Source of the DNA: a virus
Strand: one strand, 5' to 3'
Virus record (IMG/VR): IMGVR_UViG_3300023109_000186
Coordinates: 1 to 20,275 of that record
Length of the DNA: 20,275 nt
A model generated the notes under the pieces. The model worked only from the letters and a program-made list of their open reading frames with translations, was not told the origin of the DNA and made no database searches. Below are positions 1-14,048 of the stretch, in pieces (position 1 is the first letter of the stretch; each line of letters begins with the position of its first letter). The position numbers and the translations under genes are program-made.

Positions 1-1137
1 CATCTCATCAATCAAATCAAAACCGTGTCCTCCAATTGGAGAAAGAACTGGTCTAAGAAAACAACGAACGTCTGTAGATCCAGCTGCACCAGGATCAAAC
101 TCAAAAAGAGGATCCTTGATCTCTGCCGTAAGTTGGTGATATCCACTACCAAAATCTAGAATAGTAACTGAAGAAATATTTCCTCCGACAACATTTGCCT
201 TTGCCGCGGCACCCGTTCCATCTCCTTTTATTTCAACCTGAGGCTGAATAGAGAACGATGAGTTTGGCGCAAAGTTTCCTCCACCTACTGCTGAGAGAAA
301 ATCACCATCGCTTATTGTGACTCTGCCAACAGCTTGTCCGTCCGAAGACTGGGAGATATATTGATAATCAGAAATCTTGTACAAGCGTGATACACCACCG
401 GGATCTGTACAATATATCGACATTCCCACATAGTAACCAGCTGTCTGACTTAGATTTGCTGATCTTACTCTTACCTCACTATTATTTGGAGGAGAGGATG
501 CAAATATACCAGACACAAAAGGATACCCAGCATTCTCGATTGGATTTGTTACAAAGATATCACTAACAGAAGAACCCGAAACTTCTACCTGAGTATTCGC
601 TAAAGGATCTGAATCTGTAATACCAATAAGCGGAACATAACCAGAAGCATTGTAAGCTTCAAAATCAGATTCAGAAATCACGAACATAAACTTCCAGACA
701 TATTTGTCTGCAGTTCTGTAGATTTGGTTTTCTGTCTGTGAGTTGTAGTTGGGTGGATTCAACGATGGAGATTCAAAGTTGTTAAACAAACACTTATAGA
801 CTCTATAGTCTCCGGTGTCGTTATTGTTTGGGCCGACTACAGCATAAAACTTTTTATCTTCTAGATCTATAGTATCATCATATTGCACATATACCTGATC
901 TTTTTGCCAAGCATGGTACTTAATCATATAACGAACATCGCCTGGAAAGATCTTTTTGCCAAACAGTGTTTTTTCTAAAAATAAATTCTTATTTTGAATA
1001 GAGTTAACAGCGCTCAAGCGAGTGTTTGTCTCGGTTGTTACTGCCGAAACAAAAACATATAAATTATTATCTCTGACTTCTTTATCAAATAGACGTAAAT
1101 TGTCAGCTTTTAATCTTGTGGTTACTACTTCGCCCAT
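1..1137 (-). CDS. Baseplate wedge protein, gp8-like (3' end cut off)
   Basis: The gene starts at ATG 1137 (MGEVVTTRLK...) and stays open to the window edge, giving 379 residues without the C-terminus. The middle has a pattern like T4 gp8: a YRVYKCLFNN strand, an Asn/Pro-rich loop, then DKYVWKFMFVI, comparable to the YRCL...DGYVWEYLFEI arrangement of gp8. T4 gp8 is 334 aa, so this version is longer. It also has a VTILDFGSGY segment near the visible end, the same G-x-GY element seen in the gp7-like protein. A late-promoter match lies 22 nt upstream. Role by homology: peripheral baseplate wedge, binding gp7 and gp6. The family call rests on a remembered motif and position after gp6/gp7; another marine-phage wedge or fibre-base protein is possible. 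Confidence 0.55.
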   Translation of the reverse strand, partial: MGEVVTTRLKADNLRLFDKEVRDNNLYVFVSAVTTETNTRLSAVNSIQNKNLFLEKTLFGKKIFPGDVRYMIKYHAWQKDQVYVQYDDTIDLEDKKFYAVVGPNNNDTGDYRVYKCLFNNFESPSLNPPNYNSQTENQIYRTADKYVWKFMFVISESDFEAYNASGYVPLIGITDSDPLANTQVEVSGSSVSDIFVTNPIENAGYPFVSGIFASSPPNNSEVRVRSANLSQTAGYYVGMSIYCTDPGGVSRLYKISDYQYISQSSDGQAVGRVTISDGDFLSAVGGGNFAPNSSFSIQPQVEIKGDGTGAAAKANVVGGNISSVTILDFGSGYHQLTAEIKDPLFEFDPGAAGSTDVRCFLRPVLSPIGGHGFDLIDEM

Positions 1138-1173: not shown

Positions 1174-2853
1174 CTAGCCTCTTCTTCTGATTCTAGGACG
1201 TGGATAGACTCTTCCTGAAGAAGCTCTAGGTCTAAAATTTTTCTGTGGGTAACTGGTGCCACTTTCTGGTCTTTGATTAATCCAACGAGCAAAAAGATTT
1301 GCACCACCTCTTAAACTTTGCCAATCTGTTGGATCATCAGCTCCGGAATCAAACATTTGATTTTCGTTTGCATTATTGATAATCCATGCGTGTGCTTCAG
1401 CTTGTGTCATGTTTGGCCATGATTCTGCCAACAAAGCTAGAATACCTGCTATCTGCGGCCCAGACATACTCGTACCTTGATATTTTCCTAGATAATAACT
1501 GCTGTCTCTAGGATCTGTTCTTGAACTACCAACTTGGCCTGACGGTGTATGTATGCTACTTTGAATTGCTTCTCCTGCACCGTAAACGTCTACTTGATCT
1601 CCGCAGTTACTAAATGAAGCTTTATCTTCATTACTATCATTGCTTGTTGCTCCGACAACAATTACAGGAGCGTATCCCGCACCGGATCCAGTTCCTCTAT
1701 TATAGTAGAAATTATAATTAAATCCAAAATATGTCAAATAACACACGTTATTATAGTCTTGATCTGTTGGAGTACAAATTTTCCAATAATCATTACCAGC
1801 AGATGCTACAATAATAATTCCATCATCTATTGCATCTTGAATATCTGCTTGTCTTGATGTAAAATAATTTGGAAATGCGTAGTCAACTAAAGAATCATTA
1901 CCAAAGCCACGAGTATTTAATTCTGCTAATGTACAGTCTCTGCCAGGAGCGAAATCCATGCCACGGTAATTAACTCTTGTTACATTACCAAAGTTGTTAT
2001 TGCCGGGAGTAATTCCAGAACCATAACTGTTGTTTGTTACTGTTGGATTTTTTCTTCCGGTTGCAGGATTAATAGGCTTAGCGTTGTGCCATGCTCTCAT
2101 ATAATCCCAATAAGTAGATGAGCTGAAACCGAGAGCAGTCCAGTTTGGATTGGTACTATATGGACTAATATTATAAACATTAGCATCTCTAGCCCAGCCT
2201 TGAGTATTACCTGCTACTGTTCCGCCGCAATGACAACCATGATCGTTATCAACAGCGTCGATTGCGTTTGTATAAGAACCTGAACGGTCATATTGATAGG
2301 TTCCTGTTCCAGAACCGATATCGTTTTGGAACCAGTTATACTGTACTACTCTTGAACCACCACTACCATCTGGGTTTACTGCAAACTCTGGATGGTCTGG
2401 ATCAATATGTCCATCAACAATAATAACATCAACATGTTTTCCTGAAGATGTAATTGTTAAATCACTAATGACTTGTGTAGTACCACCGTCACCCCAGCCA
2501 GATCTATTGGATGATTCTGATTGGCGAAGCAATCCCCAGTTAATATCATCTGCATCTCCAGCCCAAGACTTAGAAAATTCTCCATTTTCTATTTTATATG
2601 ACGGTCTTGTAGTAATGTCAATCAATTCTGCTAACTCAACATCCCAAACTCTATCATCGGCTTTTACAAGTTCAACCTCCGATCTAGTTAGCATATAATG
2701 AGTATTGCGAGAAATAGTTCTGCGTTTAGAAACTTCTACTTCTCTATCTGGAATGTACAGGTTACCGCCAGGAGTTTCCATATCATTATAGAAATCCTCT
2801 AAATCCTCTTTACGATGAAGAGTGACGATCCATTCTTGTTTTGGTTCTTCCAT
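1174..2853 (-). CDS. Subtilisin-like serine protease (peptidase S8), likely virion-associated
   Basis: A 559-aa protein with a full subtilase triad: Asp147 in VDVIIVD, His205 in DHGCHCGGTVAG, and Ser462 in GTSMSGPQIAG. The oxyanion Asn354 lies in VASAGND. Residues 1-80 look like an I9-type propeptide, ending in DDRVWDVEL much as inhibitor I9 domains do, so self-processing is plausible. There is no signal peptide, so it would act inside the host or on the particle. Cysteines flank the active-site His (207, 209) and four more occur at 307, 360, 371 and 417. The tail is Arg/Pro-rich and probably disordered. The start is firm: GGAGG lies 5 nt before ATG, and the upstream stop abuts it (TAGATG). 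It is co-transcribed with the fibre-like gene. Protease family certain; substrate unknown (candidates: host surface protein, virion protein, fibre maturation). Confidence 0.9.
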   Translation of the reverse strand: MEEPKQEWIVTLHRKEDLEDFYNDMETPGGNLYIPDREVEVSKRRTISRNTHYMLTRSEVELVKADDRVWDVELAELIDITTRPSYKIENGEFSKSWAGDADDINWGLLRQSESSNRSGWGDGGTTQVISDLTITSSGKHVDVIIVDGHIDPDHPEFAVNPDGSGGSRVVQYNWFQNDIGSGTGTYQYDRSGSYTNAIDAVDNDHGCHCGGTVAGNTQGWARDANVYNISPYSTNPNWTALGFSSSTYWDYMRAWHNAKPINPATGRKNPTVTNNSYGSGITPGNNNFGNVTRVNYRGMDFAPGRDCTLAELNTRGFGNDSLVDYAFPNYFTSRQADIQDAIDDGIIIVASAGNDYWKICTPTDQDYNNVCYLTYFGFNYNFYYNRGTGSGAGYAPVIVVGATSNDSNEDKASFSNCGDQVDVYGAGEAIQSSIHTPSGQVGSSRTDPRDSSYYLGKYQGTSMSGPQIAGILALLAESWPNMTQAEAHAWIINNANENQMFDSGADDPTDWQSLRGGANLFARWINQRPESGTSYPQKNFRPRASSGRVYPRPRIRRRG

Positions 2854-3870
2854 CTATGCCTCCAGCTGGAGAACTGTTAGGGTAACTTGTACTGTTGATG
2901 CAGATCCAGATTTGTTTGTGACTCTCACCGGGATTGTTGTATCAGGTGTACTCTCGTTACTAAACCCGATAGTGCCTGGAGAGATAACTACTGTTTCCGC
3001 GCCTGTTGTAATAACTTCGGCAATTACTCCTGAGTCTGGCGTAGGATCTGATGTTTCAACTCTGCTTACATCTGCTGTACGAGCCGCGGCATCAGTATAA
3101 ATTCTTACCCAAGCTGCTCTGTCTGTTTCGATTTTTAGCAAAGCATAACCTTTAAAACCAGTAATTTCTATATTTGCAGAGGCGTCATTGTTCAAAGATG
3201 AAGATGTACCTGTTGCGCTTGAACGAGTTTGTAGAGATGAACCACCTCCTCCGCCTCCACCCAAGTCTGAATTATTAGCAAGCTGTACCCATGCACCGCT
3301 GTGAGCAAAATATGCTGCACCAGTAGCATGAACGTGAGCAAACATGCCGTGATACGTTGCAGCGCTTGGAAGTGAGTTTGTGTCTGGAAAGACGTTTGCG
3401 AAATAAACTTTACCAGTTGTTGTAATATCGTTAGTACCCATATCAAGGTTTACTGCTTGAATTGCGTCAACTGCATCTGAATCCGTATATGTTGAGCCAC
3501 CACCAGATTGTGCAACCCACGCATAGTCACTGCCATTCCAACTTAGTACTTCATTGCTACTTGCAGTACTTGTATTTAAGTGAGTGTCAACAGCAGCGTC
3601 ATTACTTGCTGAAGCATCTACGAATGTAAAAGTGCCTGCTCCATCTGTAGATAGAACTTGTCCTGCAGTACCTTCAGTGATACTAAGATCAAGTAATGTT
3701 GCAGGAATAGTTGGTTTGCCGGACAAACTTGTGTAAGACCCGTCAAACATATTTGCGACGTTGGCGTAAAGCTCAATAAAGTTGCCGTTAACTTTATCCA
3801 TAGCATCGCGCAACGGATCTCCTGTTCCGTCGTTCGACGTTACGCCGATGTTAATATTTTGCCTTGCCAT
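2854..3870 (-). CDS. Tail-fibre/baseplate appendage protein with Gly linker
   Basis: A 338-aa protein that opens with NINIG...NDGTGDPLRDAMDKVNGNF, a motif common at the N-terminus of marine phage fibre and baseplate proteins and likely a particle-attachment element. Next comes a low-complexity Ser/Thr/Gly/Asp region with short repeats of the form seen in trimeric fibres. A seven-Gly linker follows (about residue 205), then a C-terminal beta-rich domain of about 110 residues ending in VQVTLTVLQLEA. A strong Shine-Dalgarno AGGAG lies 6 nt before ATG 3870, and a late-promoter-like element lies just upstream. It directly precedes the protease gene, which suggests a joint adhesion/processing unit. 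It occupies the place of T4 gp9-gp12-type appendage genes, but I cannot assign it to one. Receptor unknown. Confidence 0.65.
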   Translation of the reverse strand: MARQNINIGVTSNDGTGDPLRDAMDKVNGNFIELYANVANMFDGSYTSLSGKPTIPATLLDLSITEGTAGQVLSTDGAGTFTFVDASASNDAAVDTHLNTSTASSNEVLSWNGSDYAWVAQSGGGSTYTDSDAVDAIQAVNLDMGTNDITTTGKVYFANVFPDTNSLPSAATYHGMFAHVHATGAAYFAHSGAWVQLANNSDLGGGGGGGSSLQTRSSATGTSSSLNNDASANIEITGFKGYALLKIETDRAAWVRIYTDAAARTADVSRVETSDPTPDSGVIAEVITTGAETVVISPGTIGFSNESTPDTTIPVRVTNKSGSASTVQVTLTVLQLEA

Positions 3871-3891: not shown

Positions 3892-3899
3892 TATTTATT
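3892..3899 (-). promoter_or_regulatory. Late-promoter-like element (AATAAATA)
   Basis: The minus strand reads AATAAATA, one mismatch from T4 TATAAATA. It lies across the gap between the gp7-like stop (3898) and the fibre gene, about 22 nt before ATG 3870 and its AGGAG ribosome site. The placement matches that of the exact promoter before the gp8-like gene, which supports function. It overlaps the TAA stop of the gp7-like gene. Confidence 0.5.
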
Positions 3900-6105
3900 A
3901 TAATGCGTCAACCTTGAGAATGCTGCTGTCTACTGTAATGTCTGTTTTATCAGATGTTACGGCATAAGTGTTGGCGCTCTGTCCTGGCCCAACAACCGGT
4001 GGACCACCGACAACATAATCATCTTTACGTGTTAATGCAAATTTAGATCCAATATTTGTTTTGACTTTAGTTTTATAAACAAACTTGTTGAATGTTTTAG
4101 TACCTGCAGGGTGTACAGTTCTTTTCAGAATATCTCCGTATTCAACAGGATCAACAACACCTTGAATCTCATAAGAGAATTCTTGATAGTAATCATTATC
4201 TCTAATCTTATTCTCAGGCTTAATATGAGAATTAAAGTTTCCGTGGTAACCCTCTGTTACACCTTGTTCCAGAGCACTCAGAGTACCTTGTGCAACAACA
4301 TCGGTATTAGCATCTCTTAGATAAACAGTTTCTTGGTCAATATAACCAAAGCCTGAATTGATTACTTTTACTTTATTGATACGACCGATTGAGAATTCAG
4401 TAAGTGTATTTACAAGAGCGTTCTCACCAAACTTTTTAGAATCATAATTTCTTTCTGCTGTAATTACAGAGTACGAGTTGTTTTCATGAACAATTGAACC
4501 AGCTGTAAATCCATAATAAGCATACGGTCTTATTTGTAAAACATTGTTTGTAGAATCAAAACCAATAATTTCGCCTGTTACTGAACCTTGCGTAACCGTG
4601 TCGCCTATATCAAAGTTAGCACTAAATTGTGAAAGAACAAGGTTTTGATCGAATCTTTCAAAAGCTTCCATTACTGGATCTCTCAAAATAGCAAACACGT
4701 CGTTTTCATATGATGCACCTGGATTAACATTAACAAGAGTTTTAACCTTACCAATATCAAACGGCGTAAGATCGAATGCTTCGTTAATAACAGAATCTAA
4801 AGCAGGTGTTGGATCTGCACCAGACATGGCCACTAGAGCCGGTGGTACTGCGTTATAATTTGTAGAATTAATTGGAACACTTAAAAAGTTTCCAATAATA
4901 TCTGTAATAAGACCAATATTTTCTACATTACTTAAAGTAACTTGTACGTCATCGGGATCAGCAGTATCTGGGAATAGACTGCCGGGTGAGGAGCTATTTA
5001 ATTCTGATAAAGAAAAATCTGCTGGTTGAAAAGTAATATTTGGTGTTCTATCGAGTGTTGAGATCGCTGTACCATCAAACTCGTTTCCTGCGTTCATCTT
5101 AACACCAACAGCAGCAGGGTTTTGCCCAGTTACAAAACCTTCGTTACCACTTGCGTCTCTAAGTCTTTCTTCAATTATAAAGTCTTGGTCTGCATTATCT
5201 AAAATAATTACTTGATCTGAAACGTGCAATCTTGTTTCAGCAACCGTATAACCAAAGCCGCCATCTTTAATTGTGTATGAGATTGTACCTGTAAATTCAT
5301 CTTGCAATTCTGTAACAATACATCTACCACCTTTACCAAGAGTAGATGTAAAGTCAAAAATATCACCGATATTATTATCTGTAGTTCTAGGCGAACTCTG
5401 ATCGATAGCAATAGAAGAGGCTGAGCCTTGCACTTGACCAAACTTAATATCGGTACCATCTACTCTTGTAATAATATCATCAAACTTAATAAATGTACCT
5501 TTAACATCGTTAATATAAATTACAGGAACAAGAGTTCTGTTTAACATAATAAAGTTAATTTTATCTACTGCAGCTCTAGCACCAGAAATACTACCAACAA
5601 TGTTCTTACCTGCTAATGAATCATATTCGTATATAATAGATGTATTTGCTGGTGAACGGAATTCTGCGTTGTTTGGAAATAACTGAAGATATGTACCAGT
5701 TTTCCAGGAAGAATCAGAAGGCTTTAGAATATTAGATGCAGGATAATAGATCTCCACATCTTCTTTAAAGAACATTCTAAAGAAAAGAATAATACCGCTC
5801 TCAGAACCTTTTCTTCTGTAAAGGCTCATAATATTTCTTACGATGAACTTGACCGTACCTACATCGTCGAGTGGTAGATCTGCAAGAAACTTTTTCTGAA
5901 AGAATATAATCATTTCAGATAGAGTTGTAGCAATGTCACGGTATTCAAACAAACGCCTGTTATTGTACACAGACATATTAGCTTGTGTTTCTAGAAACTT
6001 ATAGTATTCTTCTACGAATTTTACAAGCTCGTGACCCTCATCCCTGTAAATTGCAGGAAACTGCAGCTGGATCTGATGAGCAATATTTTTCTCGATTTTC
6101 GCCAT
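3898..6105 (-). CDS. Baseplate wedge / virion structural protein, gp7-like
   Basis: A 735-aa protein in the T4 gene 7 position, directly after gp6 (TAATG, 1-nt overlap). Residues 1-135 are helical, with FVEEYYKFLE, a repeated KKFL/YRRKGSE pattern and YYPASNILKPSDSSW, as in large structural proteins of marine T4-like phages. The middle is beta-rich with three similar turns: DGGFGY (281-286), NPGASY (461-466) and NSGFGY (583-588). Residues about 635-675 hold DNDYYQEFSYEI...HPAGTKTFNKF, a C-terminal element I associate with the same family. T4 gp7 is 1032 aa, so this is shorter, and I see no direct match to the T4 gp7 N-terminus. The wedge role is inferred from gene order; structural nature is fairly sure. 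Confidence 0.6.
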   Translation of the reverse strand: MAKIEKNIAHQIQLQFPAIYRDEGHELVKFVEEYYKFLETQANMSVYNNRRLFEYRDIATTLSEMIIFFQKKFLADLPLDDVGTVKFIVRNIMSLYRRKGSESGIILFFRMFFKEDVEIYYPASNILKPSDSSWKTGTYLQLFPNNAEFRSPANTSIIYEYDSLAGKNIVGSISGARAAVDKINFIMLNRTLVPVIYINDVKGTFIKFDDIITRVDGTDIKFGQVQGSASSIAIDQSSPRTTDNNIGDIFDFTSTLGKGGRCIVTELQDEFTGTISYTIKDGGFGYTVAETRLHVSDQVIILDNADQDFIIEERLRDASGNEGFVTGQNPAAVGVKMNAGNEFDGTAISTLDRTPNITFQPADFSLSELNSSSPGSLFPDTADPDDVQVTLSNVENIGLITDIIGNFLSVPINSTNYNAVPPALVAMSGADPTPALDSVINEAFDLTPFDIGKVKTLVNVNPGASYENDVFAILRDPVMEAFERFDQNLVLSQFSANFDIGDTVTQGSVTGEIIGFDSTNNVLQIRPYAYYGFTAGSIVHENNSYSVITAERNYDSKKFGENALVNTLTEFSIGRINKVKVINSGFGYIDQETVYLRDANTDVVAQGTLSALEQGVTEGYHGNFNSHIKPENKIRDNDYYQEFSYEIQGVVDPVEYGDILKRTVHPAGTKTFNKFVYKTKVKTNIGSKFALTRKDDYVVGGPPVVGPGQSANTYAVTSDKTDITVDSSILKVDAL

Positions 6106-7904: not shown

Positions 7905-8321
7905 TTATCTTGTCCTCTCTAGAAATACGTCAACTGATATTGGGTTTGCTTGGTTGCGTATCATGAAGTCAACACGAACTCTTACAGTATTATCATCAAC
8001 TAGAGAGGATACTGATACATCTAGTAATTCAGCTCTAGGCTCGTAAATATCTAGTGTTGTTCGTACTTGGTCTTCGATTGTTTTTAAAACGCCGGGCGTT
8101 ATATTTTCAAATAGCATGGCTTTGAGATGACCACCAAGATTTGGCTGCATCAATCTTTCACCACGGTCAGTAAGTAATAAATTTTTAATTGCTTCTTTTA
8201 CAGAATCTTCGTCTTTGCGCACTGTAATGTCAGAAGACACAGGGCTTTTCTCCATATCCTTTTTAAAATCGGAATATATGGAGATCTTTTTTGTTCTACC
8301 TGTTAATAGTTTTATTGTCAT
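7905..8321 (-). CDS. 25: Baseplate wedge protein gp25 (TssE-like)
   Basis: A 138-aa protein, close to T4 gp25 (132 aa). It has the gp25/TssE fold signature: a helix with SVKEAIKNLLLTDRGERLMQP, then the EPR motif at Glu94-Pro95-Arg96 in IYEPRAELLDV, then beta strands. gp25 with gp6 and gp53 forms the wedge core, and it nucleates sheath polymerisation. Its start overlaps the M15 peptidase stop as ATGA, and it runs directly into gp6, so the genes are translationally coupled. Confidence 0.95.
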   Translation of the reverse strand: MTIKLLTGRTKKISIYSDFKKDMEKSPVSSDITVRKDEDSVKEAIKNLLLTDRGERLMQPNLGGHLKAMLFENITPGVLKTIEDQVRTTLDIYEPRAELLDVSVSSLVDDNTVRVRVDFMIRNQANPISVDVFLERTR

Positions 8322-9949
8322 GTTGACGTAATACCTAATTGTTGTCTTTCTAGTTCCCTAAATTGTTCAGACTTCCAAAGTCTTGTTGGGCCGTAATCAA
8401 TATGAATAAATCCTTTATATCGTCCAAACCCTCTAAAGCCTACTTCTTTTGCTAAGTCCATGAAATCATAAGCTTCATCTGAAACCGGCGTGGTTTCTCT
8501 GTTCCAGCCGGCCCATTTAATATCAAAAGCCATTCCCTTCGTGTGCAGGCTGTTGAGTGTATTAGTTTTACCAGCGTCATAAAGCATTTTCTGATACTGC
8601 ATACTTCTCCAGCAGCTATTTACGATAAGACGCCTACCGGCTTTAGCCTGAAGCGCCATTAGCATGGCTTTTACTTTTCTATCGGTCTGGGTCCATCCAG
8701 CACTTCCAAGAGCCGCAATCCAACCACCTTGAATACCAATCTTAGGATGATTATTATCTTTAATTTCTTCCCAAGTTGGCACGCCTTCATACTCTTGAGT
8801 TGTTGGAGGCGGTACATTACCTTGTTGTTCAAATCTCTCTCTTGAGTTATTTATTCTTTCTTTGCGCACCTCATCATCTAATCTGATAGCTCCAGCTCTA
8901 ATAGCTTCACCTTTTACCCTATCTGATACATTTTTTAGCGTATAAAACACTTCTTCGTAACGTTTTGAGAAGTCATTGAGAGGATCTTTTAGTTTATTAA
9001 TCACTCCTTCAATGCCAGTAATCAATCCACAGATTTTTGCAATTAAAAGTTGTACCTCTTCGATAGATGGATTCTCGAAAACACTCATAGCATAATCGAT
9101 CTGTGCTTTAAGTTTCTTTCCTAGATTCTTAATATTTTCTTCACTAAAGAATTCTAATATTTCTTCTTTAAGCTGAGTAATTCTTTTTACAATTTTGTCG
9201 TTAACAAATGTTTCGATTTGTCCCATAACATTCTCAACACTAAAGTTCTTAATAGCGTTCTCTACTCGCTTGACGATCTTTTGAAATGCCTTTTCCACCT
9301 TTTCTTTGATTGCTTCGATAAGAGCTTTTACTTTAATCTTTTCAAAGAATGCTTTAATTTCATCTTCAACATTACGTATCTTTGCAAGGAATGCAAATGC
9401 ATCCTGAACCAAACCGTCGATATCGTCGAGCAGATCGAAGAAAGCATCAATAGCTGCAAATACATTTGGCATAAGTGCGCAAAACTTTCCTAGGATACTA
9501 TTTGAAGATGACCCAGTATAATAATAGTTAAGTTCAGATACAATCTGTGCCGGCTTTGTATTGTAAAGGTTTTCAATAGAAGTAGGCGTATGATTAAACT
9601 CTCTTAAATACTCAGCATATTCTAAAGGAGTAATAGGACCACGATTTAATCTATATTCTAATACCTCATTATCACCCGCGTTTATGTAAGTTTGTGCAAT
9701 ATCTCTTTTTAAGAAGTCAGTGTTAAAGCTTGAAAGAGATTCGTAAAAGTTTGGAAATCTTTTTACAGATTGAATTAAAGCATTTCTTGAAGTATCCTCA
9801 ATCATGCTTGATCTAAAATTTGTTTCAATTTGATCTAGAGCACTGATTGTAAGCTCACCTCTGCCGTTTACGCCAGAAAGCTTCGTGGTTGTATCTATTT
9901 GTTGGCCAGGATTTAAACATTGGTCCATGCCACAACATTTACACGTCAT
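8318..9949 (-). CDS. M15_3-type metallopeptidase with helical stalk, virion-associated
   Basis: A 543-aa protein from the ATG at 9949. A GGAGG five nt upstream fixes this start over an in-frame ATG at 9973. The N-terminus is Cys-rich (TCKCCGMDQC). Residues about 155-360 are long charged amphipathic helices, probably a coiled-coil stalk. The C-terminal 130 residues are an M15_3 (DUF882-like) peptidase: SCWRS, the SLHTKGMAFD zinc motif (His469, Asp476) and GFIHIDYGPTRLW (His516). Such enzymes cut peptide bonds in peptidoglycan cross-links. It overlaps gp5 by 11 nt and gp25 by 4 nt. T4 has no counterpart at this place. Inference: a baseplate-carried murein peptidase acting with the gp5 lysozyme domain. 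Catalytic fold fairly sure; virion location inferred. Confidence 0.82.
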   Translation of the reverse strand: MTCKCCGMDQCLNPGQQIDTTTKLSGVNGRGELTISALDQIETNFRSSMIEDTSRNALIQSVKRFPNFYESLSSFNTDFLKRDIAQTYINAGDNEVLEYRLNRGPITPLEYAEYLREFNHTPTSIENLYNTKPAQIVSELNYYYTGSSSNSILGKFCALMPNVFAAIDAFFDLLDDIDGLVQDAFAFLAKIRNVEDEIKAFFEKIKVKALIEAIKEKVEKAFQKIVKRVENAIKNFSVENVMGQIETFVNDKIVKRITQLKEEILEFFSEENIKNLGKKLKAQIDYAMSVFENPSIEEVQLLIAKICGLITGIEGVINKLKDPLNDFSKRYEEVFYTLKNVSDRVKGEAIRAGAIRLDDEVRKERINNSRERFEQQGNVPPPTTQEYEGVPTWEEIKDNNHPKIGIQGGWIAALGSAGWTQTDRKVKAMLMALQAKAGRRLIVNSCWRSMQYQKMLYDAGKTNTLNSLHTKGMAFDIKWAGWNRETTPVSDEAYDFMDLAKEVGFRGFGRYKGFIHIDYGPTRLWKSEQFRELERQQLGITST

Positions 9950-12008
9950 AGGTACCTCCAGATTCAGGTTCATTAGTTACAGTGGTAGAAGCTGTTTCGT
10001 AGTTTGCTTTAATCTCATCAAGAACTCTCTCAAATTCTCCAACTGTTATCTTCGCTCTATTCTGTACTAGTTTGCCGTCAGCATAAATCGGTTTCGAGTA
10101 TCTGCTTTGGCCAGCTTTTGGACCGTTTACAATTGGAAGTGAAGCCCACTCTGCGGCAAGATTATTTGCAAAGTCTGTTTTATTCATAGCACCGCTGAGA
10201 TATCCGTCAAGACCACGGAATCTAATTAATTCTATAGCCATTTTATCTTGGTTAATAGGACTAAATTTATCGCCCAATCCTAGACCTGCTCTTGTATATA
10301 ATGGATCACCTGGAGGCGGTGGATCGTTGTCGTCGTTATCATATCCGCGAAGAGTATCTTCCATGATTTGATATCTGCCCATAGCCTCTGAACCAGAAAA
10401 GCTATCAACAGCTTCTTGATATTGAAGAAGCTGACCTATTGTCATAGTTGTAATTGGTCTAGATGGGTGCAGCGCATTATCAATAAAACCTGATATAGCA
10501 TTATACCCACCATCCTGATCTCCTTCAAATCTTGCAATAAGATTCAGGAGAGGAGTTAAGCTGTTTTGCATTGCTGCAGTTGCAGGGGTCGTTGGTGCGA
10601 CAGTTTCTGTGGTCGATACTGTTTCGCCAGAATGGTCAGGTGAAGATGCACCAGCACTACCACGAGATCCAGTATCTCTATTTGTTTGTAGGTTAACACC
10701 TTTCTCAGGAGGCTCTGGAGCTTTAACAGGTTGCGCATTAGTATCCATACCAGCTGGTCTTGCGACATCCTGCGCATCTCTAGCCGCATCTGCGCTGCCT
10801 TCAGCCATACGAACAAAGTCGTCAATAAATGTAGTAGTACCACGAACCATAACATAACCGTCAGAACTTACTCTTAATTCAGCATCACCTTTGAGATCAA
10901 ATGAATCTGTTCCTTGGAATCTTACATCAGCACCTTTGATCTTAAAGTCTTCTGCTGAATCCATAGCAAACAATTTATCTGAGTGCCAAAGCATTTCTTC
11001 TGACGCAGTACCAAATATTTTTGGTGCCTGAATACCGATACCCTGTCCGGCTTCTATCTGCGTTTCTTTCTTTGCGAGTAAAGACATATATCCAACGTTG
11101 GCTTCTACTTTGACCTGTCCTGCTCTCATCTGTAGGTTTTCAGATCCATTGATAATTGTTTCAGGGCCACCTACACCAAGATAATAATTACCATGCACAA
11201 TTTGTTTAAAATCACCTTGAATCTCTTCGATCTTGTGGCCTTTTACATAAACTCGCGCATCGCCATTAATTGTTACAGTACTTGCATTACCAACTAATAC
11301 GTGTTGTTTTCTATCGATAACTTCATATTTGTCTGATGTAGATTTTTCGGTAACAGTGCCACGAGAATCGATCTGTACATAGGAACCTTCTTTATGCCAG
11401 ATAGTAACTCTTTCTGAGCCGGGTGTATCGTCAAGTTCAATAGTATGTACACCGCTTTCAATTACTTTGTTGTGCGGGTATTCGGTATCATATGCTGGTG
11501 CGGGTTCATCCCATGTTTCTTCAGAATCCGCTACTTTAACATTTAAGGCTCTACCCATCTCCCATTCAACGAGAGATGTTTCGTGTAAATATTCACCGCG
11601 TGCTAGTCTAGAGACGTCATGCTGACCAATGCTTTCTGGTTCAGATCCCTTAGCAAGAAGATGTGCATCTCTTGGCGGAATAGTTCCCCAGCCATTCTTT
11701 TCTGGATCAATCCCATCAAGATTTTGTGTTGGAACTGTACCAATAATCATAGGTTGCTGAGCATGTCTTCCGTCTAGGAATAAACCAAACACCCATTTAT
11801 TTACCTTTGCGCCGTGGAAAACGTTCGCGTCATAGGCGCCTGAAACAAGAACAGCCCAAGGTAAATCGTCATCAGGTATATCTTTATTTGTTCCGTGTAT
11901 ACCAAACGCGCGCACCTGCACTCGCCCTTCTTTACGAGGGTCAACAGTGTTTGCAATAACACCTACAAACCACAGTGGGTCGCGTATTCCTATACCGTAA
12001 TCAGGCAT
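9939..12008 (-). CDS. 5: Baseplate hub spike gp5 with C-terminal lysozyme-like domain
   Basis: A 689-aa protein from ATG 12008 (MPDYGIGIRDPLWFVG). A TTG further out at 12047 is open but has no ribosome site. The N-terminal OB fold (FVGVIANTVDPRKEGRVQVRAFG ... PMIIGTVP) is that of gp5/VgrG spikes. Residues about 190-430 resemble the triple beta-helix (VLVGNASTVTINGDARVYVKG and similar). A Ser/Thr/Pro linker leads to a lysozyme-like domain at about 484-650: ARFEGDQDGGYNAI (Glu495, probable acid), AMGRYQI, KFSPINQDKMA, FRGLDG and AAEWASLP. This block order matches lambda R/GH104 transglycosylases. T4 gp5 has its lysozyme between OB fold and helix, so the enzyme is moved here. It overlaps the hub gene by 8 nt. 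Confidence 0.9.
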   Translation of the reverse strand: MPDYGIGIRDPLWFVGVIANTVDPRKEGRVQVRAFGIHGTNKDIPDDDLPWAVLVSGAYDANVFHGAKVNKWVFGLFLDGRHAQQPMIIGTVPTQNLDGIDPEKNGWGTIPPRDAHLLAKGSEPESIGQHDVSRLARGEYLHETSLVEWEMGRALNVKVADSEETWDEPAPAYDTEYPHNKVIESGVHTIELDDTPGSERVTIWHKEGSYVQIDSRGTVTEKSTSDKYEVIDRKQHVLVGNASTVTINGDARVYVKGHKIEEIQGDFKQIVHGNYYLGVGGPETIINGSENLQMRAGQVKVEANVGYMSLLAKKETQIEAGQGIGIQAPKIFGTASEEMLWHSDKLFAMDSAEDFKIKGADVRFQGTDSFDLKGDAELRVSSDGYVMVRGTTTFIDDFVRMAEGSADAARDAQDVARPAGMDTNAQPVKAPEPPEKGVNLQTNRDTGSRGSAGASSPDHSGETVSTTETVAPTTPATAAMQNSLTPLLNLIARFEGDQDGGYNAISGFIDNALHPSRPITTMTIGQLLQYQEAVDSFSGSEAMGRYQIMEDTLRGYDNDDNDPPPPGDPLYTRAGLGLGDKFSPINQDKMAIELIRFRGLDGYLSGAMNKTDFANNLAAEWASLPIVNGPKAGQSRYSKPIYADGKLVQNRAKITVGEFERVLDEIKANYETASTTVTNEPESGGTYDV

Positions 12009-13413
12009 TTCCTTGATCCGTTCTACTATCAGTTGCAGACCAATCAAACTTCACCAGAAGAAGAGAAGTTGTAAGCTCTCCATGTTTCATCTGATGGCTT
12101 GTGGTCTTAATCATATATTTACCACTAAGAGATTGATTTCTTTTAGAGTCAACATTCAACTGAGCAATATCTAATTGAATGATTTCACCAGGACGTAAAT
12201 CTAATCTACCCTTAAGTGCGGCTTTTACTTGTACATTATTTAAGTGATGATAATAAGAAACTCTGTTCTGTGTAATCGTAGGAACAAATCTCTCCGACCT
12301 AATGTTCGACCTAATATCACCAATACTTTGATAATCTTTATATACTACAAAATTTCTTGCATTTTCTTCTGTAAATGTTTCATCTCTAAACGCTTTTGTA
12401 TGCGGCTGAGTATCTTCACTACTCGTTCGAGCTTGGTTACCACTAAAATCCATATAATCAGCGTCTTCATCGTAATTAAAATTATAGTCAGTAACTTGTT
12501 TTCTTACAATATCAATCTCTGTTACTTTGCTTCTATAAGCGCCTGAGAAAATATCAGTAGCTGTATCTAAACCTTTATTAACAATTTGTAACTGCTCAAT
12601 TCTTTCGAGCTGAGCTAAAGGCCTATTTGGATCAAGGCTGCCAAGAGGGCCATAGTACAAGTGTTTAATCTTACCGGCATTGTGTTTATGAATAAAGAAT
12701 TCGTCAGTTACCCAGTAATAAGATTCAAGAGTCTCAAAGAATCTATAAGTACAGGATGGAACGTTTGTATTGTATCCCATACTCGCGAGCATATTCATTG
12801 TATACGGTGGCGTGTAATCAGGTATAGTTAAACCCGTTGCAGAAGAAGTATCTTGAAGATAAAACTTTCTTTGTCCGAAGTTATCTTCAACAATTGTAGA
12901 TTCTTTAAGATTGTATCTTTTTGCAGAGTTCATTGTAAAGTCTTGGCCATACAATTGATCTATCTTAGTCTCTCCACCAATCTTAGCATAGTAAGTTTGG
13001 AATACTCTTTTTGCAATCTCGTGCACTTGGCCGTTGTAGGCTTTGATTATTTTTCTTTTGTTGGCATTAAAAGTTTCTTTAGAAACAAAGTGCATTTTAT
13101 ATACAGCACCGTCTGTATTTTCCATAGGTGTAATATCACTTACACGGATCACTCTTGTTTGTAAAATAACCTTGTACGGCATATCAGAAGAAATAATTGT
13201 CATAAGCAATGTTTCTTCTGCGCGTAACGGCAAATTCTCAAGAAGACCAACTGTCTCCTCGATCTCTAAAAATCCCTGATACTGATGAGCTTCCATGCTC
13301 TGTGAAATCTCAAAGCCAGTAATAAACTGAGCAATATCCTCTACGCGTTTGGGATCAAACTCGTTTACAATCTGGCAGGATACGACTTCGCATTGAGATA
13401 GATTACGTGACAT
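12001..13413 (-). CDS. Baseplate hub protein, gp27-like
   Basis: A 470-aa protein immediately upstream of gp5, its expected partner in the hub trimer. It begins CEVVSCQIVNEFDPKRVEDIAQFITGFEISQSM, followed by EIEETVGLLENLPLRAEETL, the strand pattern expected of tube-like hub domains. Near the C-terminus, LDLRPGEIIQLDI and GKYMIKTTSHQM resemble the hub-domain turns of gp27/gpD-type proteins. T4 gp27 is 391 aa. Its TGA overlaps the gp5 start by 8 nt, and its own ATG shares bases with the upstream stop (TGATG), so translation is coupled. No enzymatic motif is seen. The gp27 assignment is from position and general pattern, not from a diagnostic motif. Confidence 0.65.
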   Translation of the reverse strand: MSRNLSQCEVVSCQIVNEFDPKRVEDIAQFITGFEISQSMEAHQYQGFLEIEETVGLLENLPLRAEETLLMTIISSDMPYKVILQTRVIRVSDITPMENTDGAVYKMHFVSKETFNANKRKIIKAYNGQVHEIAKRVFQTYYAKIGGETKIDQLYGQDFTMNSAKRYNLKESTIVEDNFGQRKFYLQDTSSATGLTIPDYTPPYTMNMLASMGYNTNVPSCTYRFFETLESYYWVTDEFFIHKHNAGKIKHLYYGPLGSLDPNRPLAQLERIEQLQIVNKGLDTATDIFSGAYRSKVTEIDIVRKQVTDYNFNYDEDADYMDFSGNQARTSSEDTQPHTKAFRDETFTEENARNFVVYKDYQSIGDIRSNIRSERFVPTITQNRVSYYHHLNNVQVKAALKGRLDLRPGEIIQLDIAQLNVDSKRNQSLSGKYMIKTTSHQMKHGELTTSLLLVKFDWSATDSRTDQGNA

Positions 13414-13670
13414 CAGCTATTTCTTAATTTTCTAATAAATTCTTGTTCTACGCGCGGCAGATATTCTCTATCGATTAGGAATATTTCTTTCTTATTTTCA
13501 TTCAACGCATATTCTTCGTCGTAAATCTTCCAAGGTTTCCATTCATCTGGAATAATTCGTTTAATAATAATCTTACGACCCGTTTCAGTACGCAAGATCA
13601 CGCGATCTTCTTTACGAAGGTAAATAGTTCGGAAAGATTCCGGCGCTAGTTTGACAATTTCTACTGCCAT
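13413..13670 (-). CDS. Small unknown protein between gp53 and hub
   Basis: An 85-aa protein I do not recognise. It is rich in charged and beta-forming residues (EIVKLAPESFRTIYLRKEDR, GRKIIIKRIIPDEW), with no cysteine, membrane segment or signal peptide. AGAGG lies about 9 nt before ATG 13670, three nt separate it from the gp53 stop, and its own stop overlaps the hub start (TGATG). Being locked into this operon argues for a structural or assembly role in the baseplate; T4 has no gene here between 53 and 5. It might be a small wedge or hub accessory. No function is claimed. Confidence 0.7.
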   Translation of the reverse strand: MAVEIVKLAPESFRTIYLRKEDRVILRTETGRKIIIKRIIPDEWKPWKIYDEEYALNENKKEIFLIDREYLPRVEQEFIRKLRNS

Positions 13671-13673
13671 TTA

Positions 13674-14048
13674 CTATACCTCTTTGTAATAATATATAAT
13701 GTTCTCGTCATTATCGTCTTTTGTCCAGTCGATAATGTTCTCACCCGTGAGTCCTGATGCTTCACCGTATTTGTCAATTAAGAATAAATTGAACTCGTAA
13801 TTTGATTTAGGCCATTCGTGATATGGATCTGTAATGTTATTAGCCATATAAACTAGCCATTCATAATCTACAGAGCCATAATACCACTCTGCGATATCCT
13901 GTGCTCTCTCGCCTTCCTTAACAGTATAAGGCATGTAAAGAAGTGGATTGTTTGTAACTTCTTTTGTAAACGTATTACGGCGAGTGATGTCTTTAACCTT
14001 AACACCGAGGTACTCAATTTCTGGAAATTTTTCAAAATATCTTGTCAT
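13674..14048 (-). CDS. 53: Baseplate wedge protein gp53
   Basis: A 124-aa protein, shorter than T4 gp53 (196 aa). It opens TRYFEKFPEIEYLGVKVKDI, and the core YTVKEGERAQDIAEWYYGSVDYEWLVYMANNITDPYHEWP is the LysM-like fold typical of gp53. gp53 clamps neighbouring wedges through gp6/gp25, closing the inner ring. The start overlaps the gp48 stop as ATGA. The T4 order gp4-gp53-gp5 is preserved in outline here, with gp48 inserted and strands changed. The missing C-terminal part relative to T4 is common in marine relatives as far as I recall. Confidence 0.9.
   Translation of the reverse strand: MTRYFEKFPEIEYLGVKVKDITRRNTFTKEVTNNPLLYMPYTVKEGERAQDIAEWYYGSVDYEWLVYMANNITDPYHEWPKSNYEFNLFLIDKYGEASGLTGENIIDWTKDDNDENIIYYYKEV

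Follow-up and report, generated by a model that had tools for sequence, protein, structure and literature searches.

Most of the enzymes known from phage tails cut sugars or cell walls. Tail-spike depolymerases act on polysaccharide, and the Peptidase_S74 fibre chaperones act on themselves. In T-even phages, the gp37 fibre gene is followed at once by the gene for gp38, an adhesin borne at the fibre tip.

The protease family considered here is already known by sequence, as phrog_9158 or T4-GC 292, where its members are annotated as unknown or with the bare word "protease". It includes P-SSM2 PSSM2_297 (annotated T4-GC 292 with PF00082), S-RSM4 SRSM4_039 and the "subtilisin-like serine protease" of S-H38, which stand in the same place, after a fibre gene; several phage relatives bear the annotation subtilisin-like protease or peptidase. 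In the available text of the open-licence literature, including PMC9602691, PMC9964418, PMC10665884, PMC3037559 and PMC12796325, no function is described for the phrog_9158 protein, and we found no experiment on any family member in the portions of that literature open to us. Another S8 peptidase, T4-GC518, is reported from P-HM1 and P-HM2 in the accessible text of Sullivan et al. (2010).

Here we describe a relative of these proteins from a marine virus of bacteria, in a virus record of 20,275 bases, the whole of which was analysed and is called the window. Compared with the cyanophage members of phrog_9158, it sits in a phiM12-like backbone that is not typical of cyanophages. The novelty lies in how tightly, and in both directions, the S8 gene is coupled to an exchangeable fibre end domain. 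The protease gene and its parts are as follows, where the states of each active-site residue are counted over 113 S8 open reading frames (ORFs):

1174..2853, minus strand: subtilase gene (phrog_9158 / PF00082), 559 aa, ATG start
2602..2853, minus strand: prodomain of I9-type fold (beta-alpha-beta-beta-alpha-beta), residues 1-84, from the AlphaFold model and structure alignment
2551..2601, minus strand: low-confidence linker and predicted self-cleavage zone, residues 85-101 (pLDDT below 50 at 86-93)
1264..2550, minus strand: catalytic domain of proteinase K-like fold, residues 102-530, from the 4dzt alignment
2413..2415, minus strand: codon of catalytic Asp147 (D 109, E 1, gap 3 of 113)
2239..2241, minus strand: codon of catalytic His205, within HGCHC (H 112, gap 1 of 113)
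1792..1794, minus strand: codon of oxyanion Asn354 (N 110, gap 3 of 113)
1468..1470, minus strand: codon of the nucleophile Ser462, in GTSMSGP (S 104, T 1, gap 8 of 113)
1177..1263, minus strand: basic tail ending YPRPRIRRRG, residues 531-559 (pLDDT below 50; predicted disordered from about 537)

The PF00082 model of Pfam covers residues 138-499 of the protease with 95.9 bits, against a curated cut-off of 21.8, and the phrog_9158 profile covers residues 4-555, the full length, with 376.7 bits. The Asp-His-Ser order of the triad and the oxyanion Asn are kept (D147, H205, N354 and S462), at the positions that a sequence-only reading of this DNA had assigned to them. The ratio dN/dS is 0.14 against the relatives in L004 and L007, and 0.11 against L008, a value to be read in the light of synonymous sites near saturation; GC at codon positions 1/2/3 is 0.48/0.47/0.23. 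A chance ORF is rejected on dN/dS and codon-position GC, and a pseudogene is rejected as the main reading on dN/dS and the kept triad. The stretch 1174-2853 is thereby confirmed as a real, complete subtilase under purifying selection. The lack of a signal peptide, also claimed from the letters, agrees with the hydropathy profile, where the best 19-residue value in the N-terminal region is -0.72 and neither a signal peptide nor a membrane segment appears. The further claim that the Cys residues of HGCHC are unusual for a subtilase proved weak, as Cys occupies position 207 in 57 and position 209 in 58 of the 113 rows; with each present in about half of the rows, HGCHC was dropped as a mark of the family. 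A Cys at the position of Cys209 is known from proteinase K as well.

The AlphaFold model of the protease has a mean pLDDT of 87.3 and a pTM of 0.89. In structure alignments, mature proteases match the model from about residue 102 onward, and high scores are reached by aqualysin 4dzt (Z 33.4, rmsd 2.0, 265 aligned) and proteinase K 1ic6 (Z 32.0, rmsd 2.3, 268 aligned). With PCSK9 and other pro-subtilases, the prodomain and catalytic domain align jointly: 3afg_B spans 1..529 of the model (350 aligned, rmsd 3.5, Z 30.2), and PCSK9 with its prodomain, 5vla_A, spans 5..526 (322 aligned, rmsd 3.2, Z 30.0). Because these structures align from the start of the model, residues 1-84 are assigned by fold as an I9-type prodomain. 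The I9-like propeptide of the sequence-only reading stands as a fold, in the position that it has in solved pro-subtilases, and falls as a Pfam sequence match, with PF05922 (Inhibitor I9) unmatched at E values up to 10 in the 10 members scanned, where HMMER filters may drop weak matches. This prodomain would act as both chaperone and inhibitor during folding, and we infer that the chain would then cut itself near residues 85-101. Within the basic tail, P551, R552 and R556 are almost invariant across 42 sequences. The fold, triad, oxyanion Asn and prodomain are thus held in common with proteinase K and aqualysin-type subtilases, from which the window protease differs in having no secretion signal and in its long inserts, basic tail and coupling to a virion-fibre gene.

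Matches to the S8 protein occur in 40 of 50,697 phage records (33 Synechococcus phages, 4 Prochlorococcus phages and 3 marine single-cell virus contigs), at about 24-46% identity and in every case below 60%. Isolates that carry the gene are S-H38, S-CREM1, S-RSM4 and Sf-FR1. The sequence-only reading had contrasted the locus with T4, and with matches limited to cyanophages and marine single-cell virus contigs, the contrast holds for T4 itself; it does not extend to novelty among T4-like phages, given PSSM2_297 in P-SSM2. From IMG/VR, a single-sequence query returned 24 relatives and an alignment query at least 592, of which 80 were analysed.

Nearly all active-site gaps in the 113-ORF set come from ORFs truncated at the end of a contig or locus, and the single Ser to Thr case is likewise in an ORF that a locus end cuts short. 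A second set of 79 ORFs was retrieved via the fibre domain, which makes it independent of protease patterns, and gives D 70, E 5 and gap 4 at the Asp, H 72 and gap 7 at the His, N 65, H 1 and gap 13 at the Asn, and S 61 and gap 18 at the Ser. Glu takes the place of the catalytic Asp in L134, L135, L147, L148, L171 and L123 (S-CAM1), with His, Asn and Ser kept, and the five Glu sequences of the 79-ORF set form one group resembling the S-CAM1 protein. In L137, the first of two tandem S8 ORFs (1442-3718) is uncut and is without the Ser block. The Glu subgroup and this copy keep their position after the fibre, as would be expected if catalysis served only to free the prodomain, which stays, and the mature protein were a receptor-binding tip in the manner of PCSK9. 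The presence of PCSK9 with its prodomain among the close structural matches points the same way, as does the alternative partner family described below, which has no protease match. However, active proteases such as proteinase K and aqualysin fit the model at least as well, and the triad is otherwise kept in both ORF sets; we regard such a purely binding role as improbable.

Two S8 genes stand in tandem in L014, L025, L137, L139, L165, L187, L193, L196, L200, L202 and L203, and the second copy in L014 and L025 has its own fibre-domain gene. A plastocyanin/azurin-like C-terminal segment is found in the S8 proteins of L029 (ACG-2014h) and L036 (S-H9-1), where PF00127 scores below its cut-off (E 0.0014 and 0.051, respectively), and plastocyanin-like segments were seen by eye in those of S-CAM4 and AG-345-P14. 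About 300 additional residues are carried by the S8 proteins of L022 (8588-11248), L023, L098, L109 and others; in L022 they sit between the triad Asp and His and have no Pfam match. About 220 additional residues, also with no Pfam match, lie between the prodomain and the catalytic domain in L020 (9768-12122), as well as in L018 and L019.

The stop codon of the gene upstream abuts the ATG of the protease, with 0 bases between them, and this gene encodes a fibre:

2854..3870, minus strand: gene of the baseplate fibre (338 aa), immediately before the protease gene
3751..3864, minus strand: T4 gp9/gp10-type N-terminal motif, fibre residues 3-40, the expected baseplate attachment
2857..3246, minus strand: conserved jelly-roll C-terminal domain, fibre residues 209-338, the proposed dock

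The fibre matches phrog_677 and phrog_958, and PF07880 scores 23.7 bits at its N-terminus, slightly below the cut-off of 25. Judging from the family, the gp9/gp10-like N-terminus would fix the fibre to the baseplate. The sole Pfam match at E values up to 0.001 is T4_gp9_10_N, Peptidase_S74 is absent from the fibre, and the gp38 family is absent among the PHROG matches. Residues of about 210-338 form a confidently predicted domain whose fold finds generic jelly-roll matches only (best Z 7.5). The subtilase Tk-SP came up as the third Foldseek hit to this domain (E 2.6e-3; Z 6.2), with the alignment falling on the part of Tk-SP after about residue 420, and was set aside as too weak to be called a relative. 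The C-domain is conserved to its final residues, with E337 invariant and L336 and A338 nearly so, and a Gly-rich stretch (4 or more Gly in a span of 20 residues) marks its start in 82 of 100 sequences. The gene pair may be likened to gp37 and gp38, in that the gene of another protein directly follows a fibre gene, the proposed tip protein of the window being a subtilase.

The coupling of the two genes extends well beyond the window. The fibre C-domain ends the ORF directly upstream of S8 in 95 of 104 testable ORFs (the 113 S8 ORFs, from which 6 duplicate loci had been dropped, minus 9 at contig edges), mostly at a distance of 10 nt or less or overlapping; L123, counted among the 95, is a locus that had been retrieved via the fibre C-domain. 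Nine ORFs fall outside this count. In L108 the C-domain is present just upstream of S8 and the overlap is larger; another is the first of the two L025 copies; and in the remaining seven (P-SSM2, AG-345-E02, S-SCSM1, S-T4, Sf-CH8, AG-345-L05 and AG-345-F15) S8 follows a fibre with a different C-terminus. In the reverse direction, a search with the 130-residue fibre domain alone finds an S8 gene next in 79 of 80 loci, and the remaining one is at a contig edge; these are the best 80 of 196 confirmed relatives, and 10 of the 80 contigs are shared with the first set. Fibre ORFs that are complete and bear the C-domain measure between about 240 and 1871 aa; the fibre body thus varies in length, and the end domain and protease stay together. 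Among 78 loci of bacterial or archaeal genomes with a distant S8, the fibre domain occurs in the 4 that look like phage and is missing from the other 74. The coupling to a fibre-like gene between wedge genes, which had been noticed from the letters of the window, is borne out by these counts.

Co-evolution was considered as a pointer to the C-domain specifically and was rejected. The 88 pairs gave 56 usable triples, of which 40 remained after dereplication; in a Mantel test on these 40, S8 correlates with the C-domain at r 0.51 and with the fibre N-terminus at r 0.46, values that do not discriminate; the C-domain and N-terminus correlate at r 0.32.

The S8 protein is not the only neighbour of this fibre end. 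Proteins of another family, about 600-930 aa long, are encoded directly after the fibre domain in S-BM3, Sf-CH1b, the first copy in S-H9-1, S-SCSM1 (gp141/gp140) and AG-345-F15; a scan of four of the five, all but S-SCSM1 gp140, gave no Pfam match. S-H9-1 holds both arrangements, one copy with S8 and one with the alternative partner. In S-CAM1, a divergent S8 annotated "tail fiber protein" stands next to the fibre domain, and the siphoviruses S-CRES1, PSS2 and S-CBS2 have other genes after it. As the fibre end works with two unrelated neighbours, a docking role explains it more readily than a role as the substrate of a protease, and we infer that it probably serves as a dock. More tentatively, and with odds somewhat short of even, the jelly-roll may be a socket common to cyanophages and phiM12-like phages for exchangeable tips, a zymogen subtilisin in some cases and in others a non-proteolytic member of another family; lineages would swap these tips, and proteolysis of host surface proteins would become a tool of host range. 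If so, this would be the proteolytic counterpart of the tail-spike polysaccharide depolymerases.

The near-invariable position beside the fibre domain could also be that of an assembly protease, which would trim the fibre in trans, for example by removing the jelly-roll after trimerisation, and would do its work inside the infected cell, with no need for it to remain in the virion. The Gly-rich and probably exposed linker before the domain (82 of 100) would offer a site, and control by a prodomain suits timed processing. Yet fibre ends of this kind are also paired with a non-protease partner, the conservation of the C-domain runs to its last residues (L336, E337, A338), the fibre has no Peptidase_S74 match, and in S-SCSM1 the homologue bears a lectin domain and a virion-protein tag. 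We consider fibre processing unlikely.

This S-SCSM1 homologue, gp144, is annotated "baseplate wedge subunit (virion protein)" and carries a Laminin_G_3 domain (90.9 bits), a lectin domain. It is a distant relative at about 27% identity, and the fibre that precedes it has another type of C-terminus. The S-SCSM1 record has 47 CDS tagged as virion protein, a number that is unequal to the 45 proteins detected by mass spectrometry according to the accessible text (PMC9602691). The tag probably records mass-spectrometry detection, since it is given to a translational repressor and skips some structural genes named by homology. For S-CREM1, whose S8 is 42% identical, the available text gives 14 virion proteins by mass spectrometry and does not name the peptidase among them. 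Taken together, the presence of the protease in virions appears partly supported. It also bears on the idea of an intracellular effector, a late protease that would cut host proteins or aid lysis and whose baseplate position would be one of operon convenience. A protein with no signal peptide would indeed stay cytoplasmic until lysis, but the reciprocal linkage to the fibre domain, the lectin fusion and the virion tag all speak against this role, which we hold to be very improbable.

We therefore favour, with a probability of roughly 0.5, a zymogen subtilisin that is docked on the baseplate fibre and cuts host surface proteins. The protease would attach to the jelly-roll C-terminal domain of the fibre encoded just upstream, a step suggested by the reciprocal gene linkage, and on the particle its place would be the outer fibre end, beyond a glycine-rich tether. 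At adsorption, it would cut outer-membrane proteins, the S-layer or other large proteins of the host cell surface. The sequence-only reading had proposed a structural S8 protease acting on either host surface proteins or fibres; its link to the fibre stands, and of its two options cutting of the surface appears the better, because a non-protease partner exists and the S-SCSM1 protein is fused to a lectin domain. In contrast to the tail-spike depolymerases and Peptidase_S74 chaperones, the window encodes a separate serine protease, which is proposed to act in trans. If this is true, infection by some aquatic phages involves cleavage of a protein barrier or receptor, the proteases give a handle on surface proteins of marine bacteria and Synechococcus that are important for entry, and phrog_9158 gains a function. 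As S8-bearing isolates exist, the proteolytic fibre tip is both the leading reading and a testable one.

The protease and fibre genes lie between a gp7-type wedge gene (3898-6105) and a gp8-type gene (1-1137). The gene order of the window is that of Sinorhizobium phage phiM12 (gp19, gp2, gp4, gp48, gp53, gp27-like, gp5, M15 peptidase, gp25, gp6, gp7, gp8), which has an additional HNH-type gene before gp6. In phiM12 (L212), gp7 ends at 13792 and gp8 starts at 13811, 18 bases apart with nothing between, and it is this interval, empty in phiM12, that the fibre and protease occupy in the window. A survey of the neighbourhood in other phages finds the full order gp7-fibre-S8-gp8 in 40 of 180 loci with an S8 ORF, with gp7 before in 51 and gp8 after in 72. 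In S-H38 and S-CREM1, the fibre-S8 pair comes after giant baseplate-wedge genes, and fibre genes surround it in other cyanophages, which places the pair in differing genome contexts.

The host of the window phage is likely alphaproteobacterial, to judge from three features of these genomes. The window gp6 is closest to those of Sinorhizobium and Caulobacter phages. None of 15 longer contigs with the fibre-S8 module has a psbA-type gene; a gp23 search of the same 15 gave 3 above the cut-off. Close relatives occur in contigs of the Rhodobacteraceae bin Water_Bin34, which has four S8 matches, and two of its contigs (L213 and L214) show the order gp7-fibre-S8-gp8, which marks them as phage contigs binned with a Rhodobacteraceae genome; the bin may be contaminated by phage contigs.

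Elsewhere in the window, the gp53-type wedge protein is encoded at 13413-14048 as two adjacent ORFs that match phrog_232 positions 1-127 and 152-194. The gp53 of phiM12 is one gene, and the split in the window is either real or a sequence error. A Peptidase M15-type gene lies at 8318-9973, between gp5 and gp25, and is found in the same place in phiM12.
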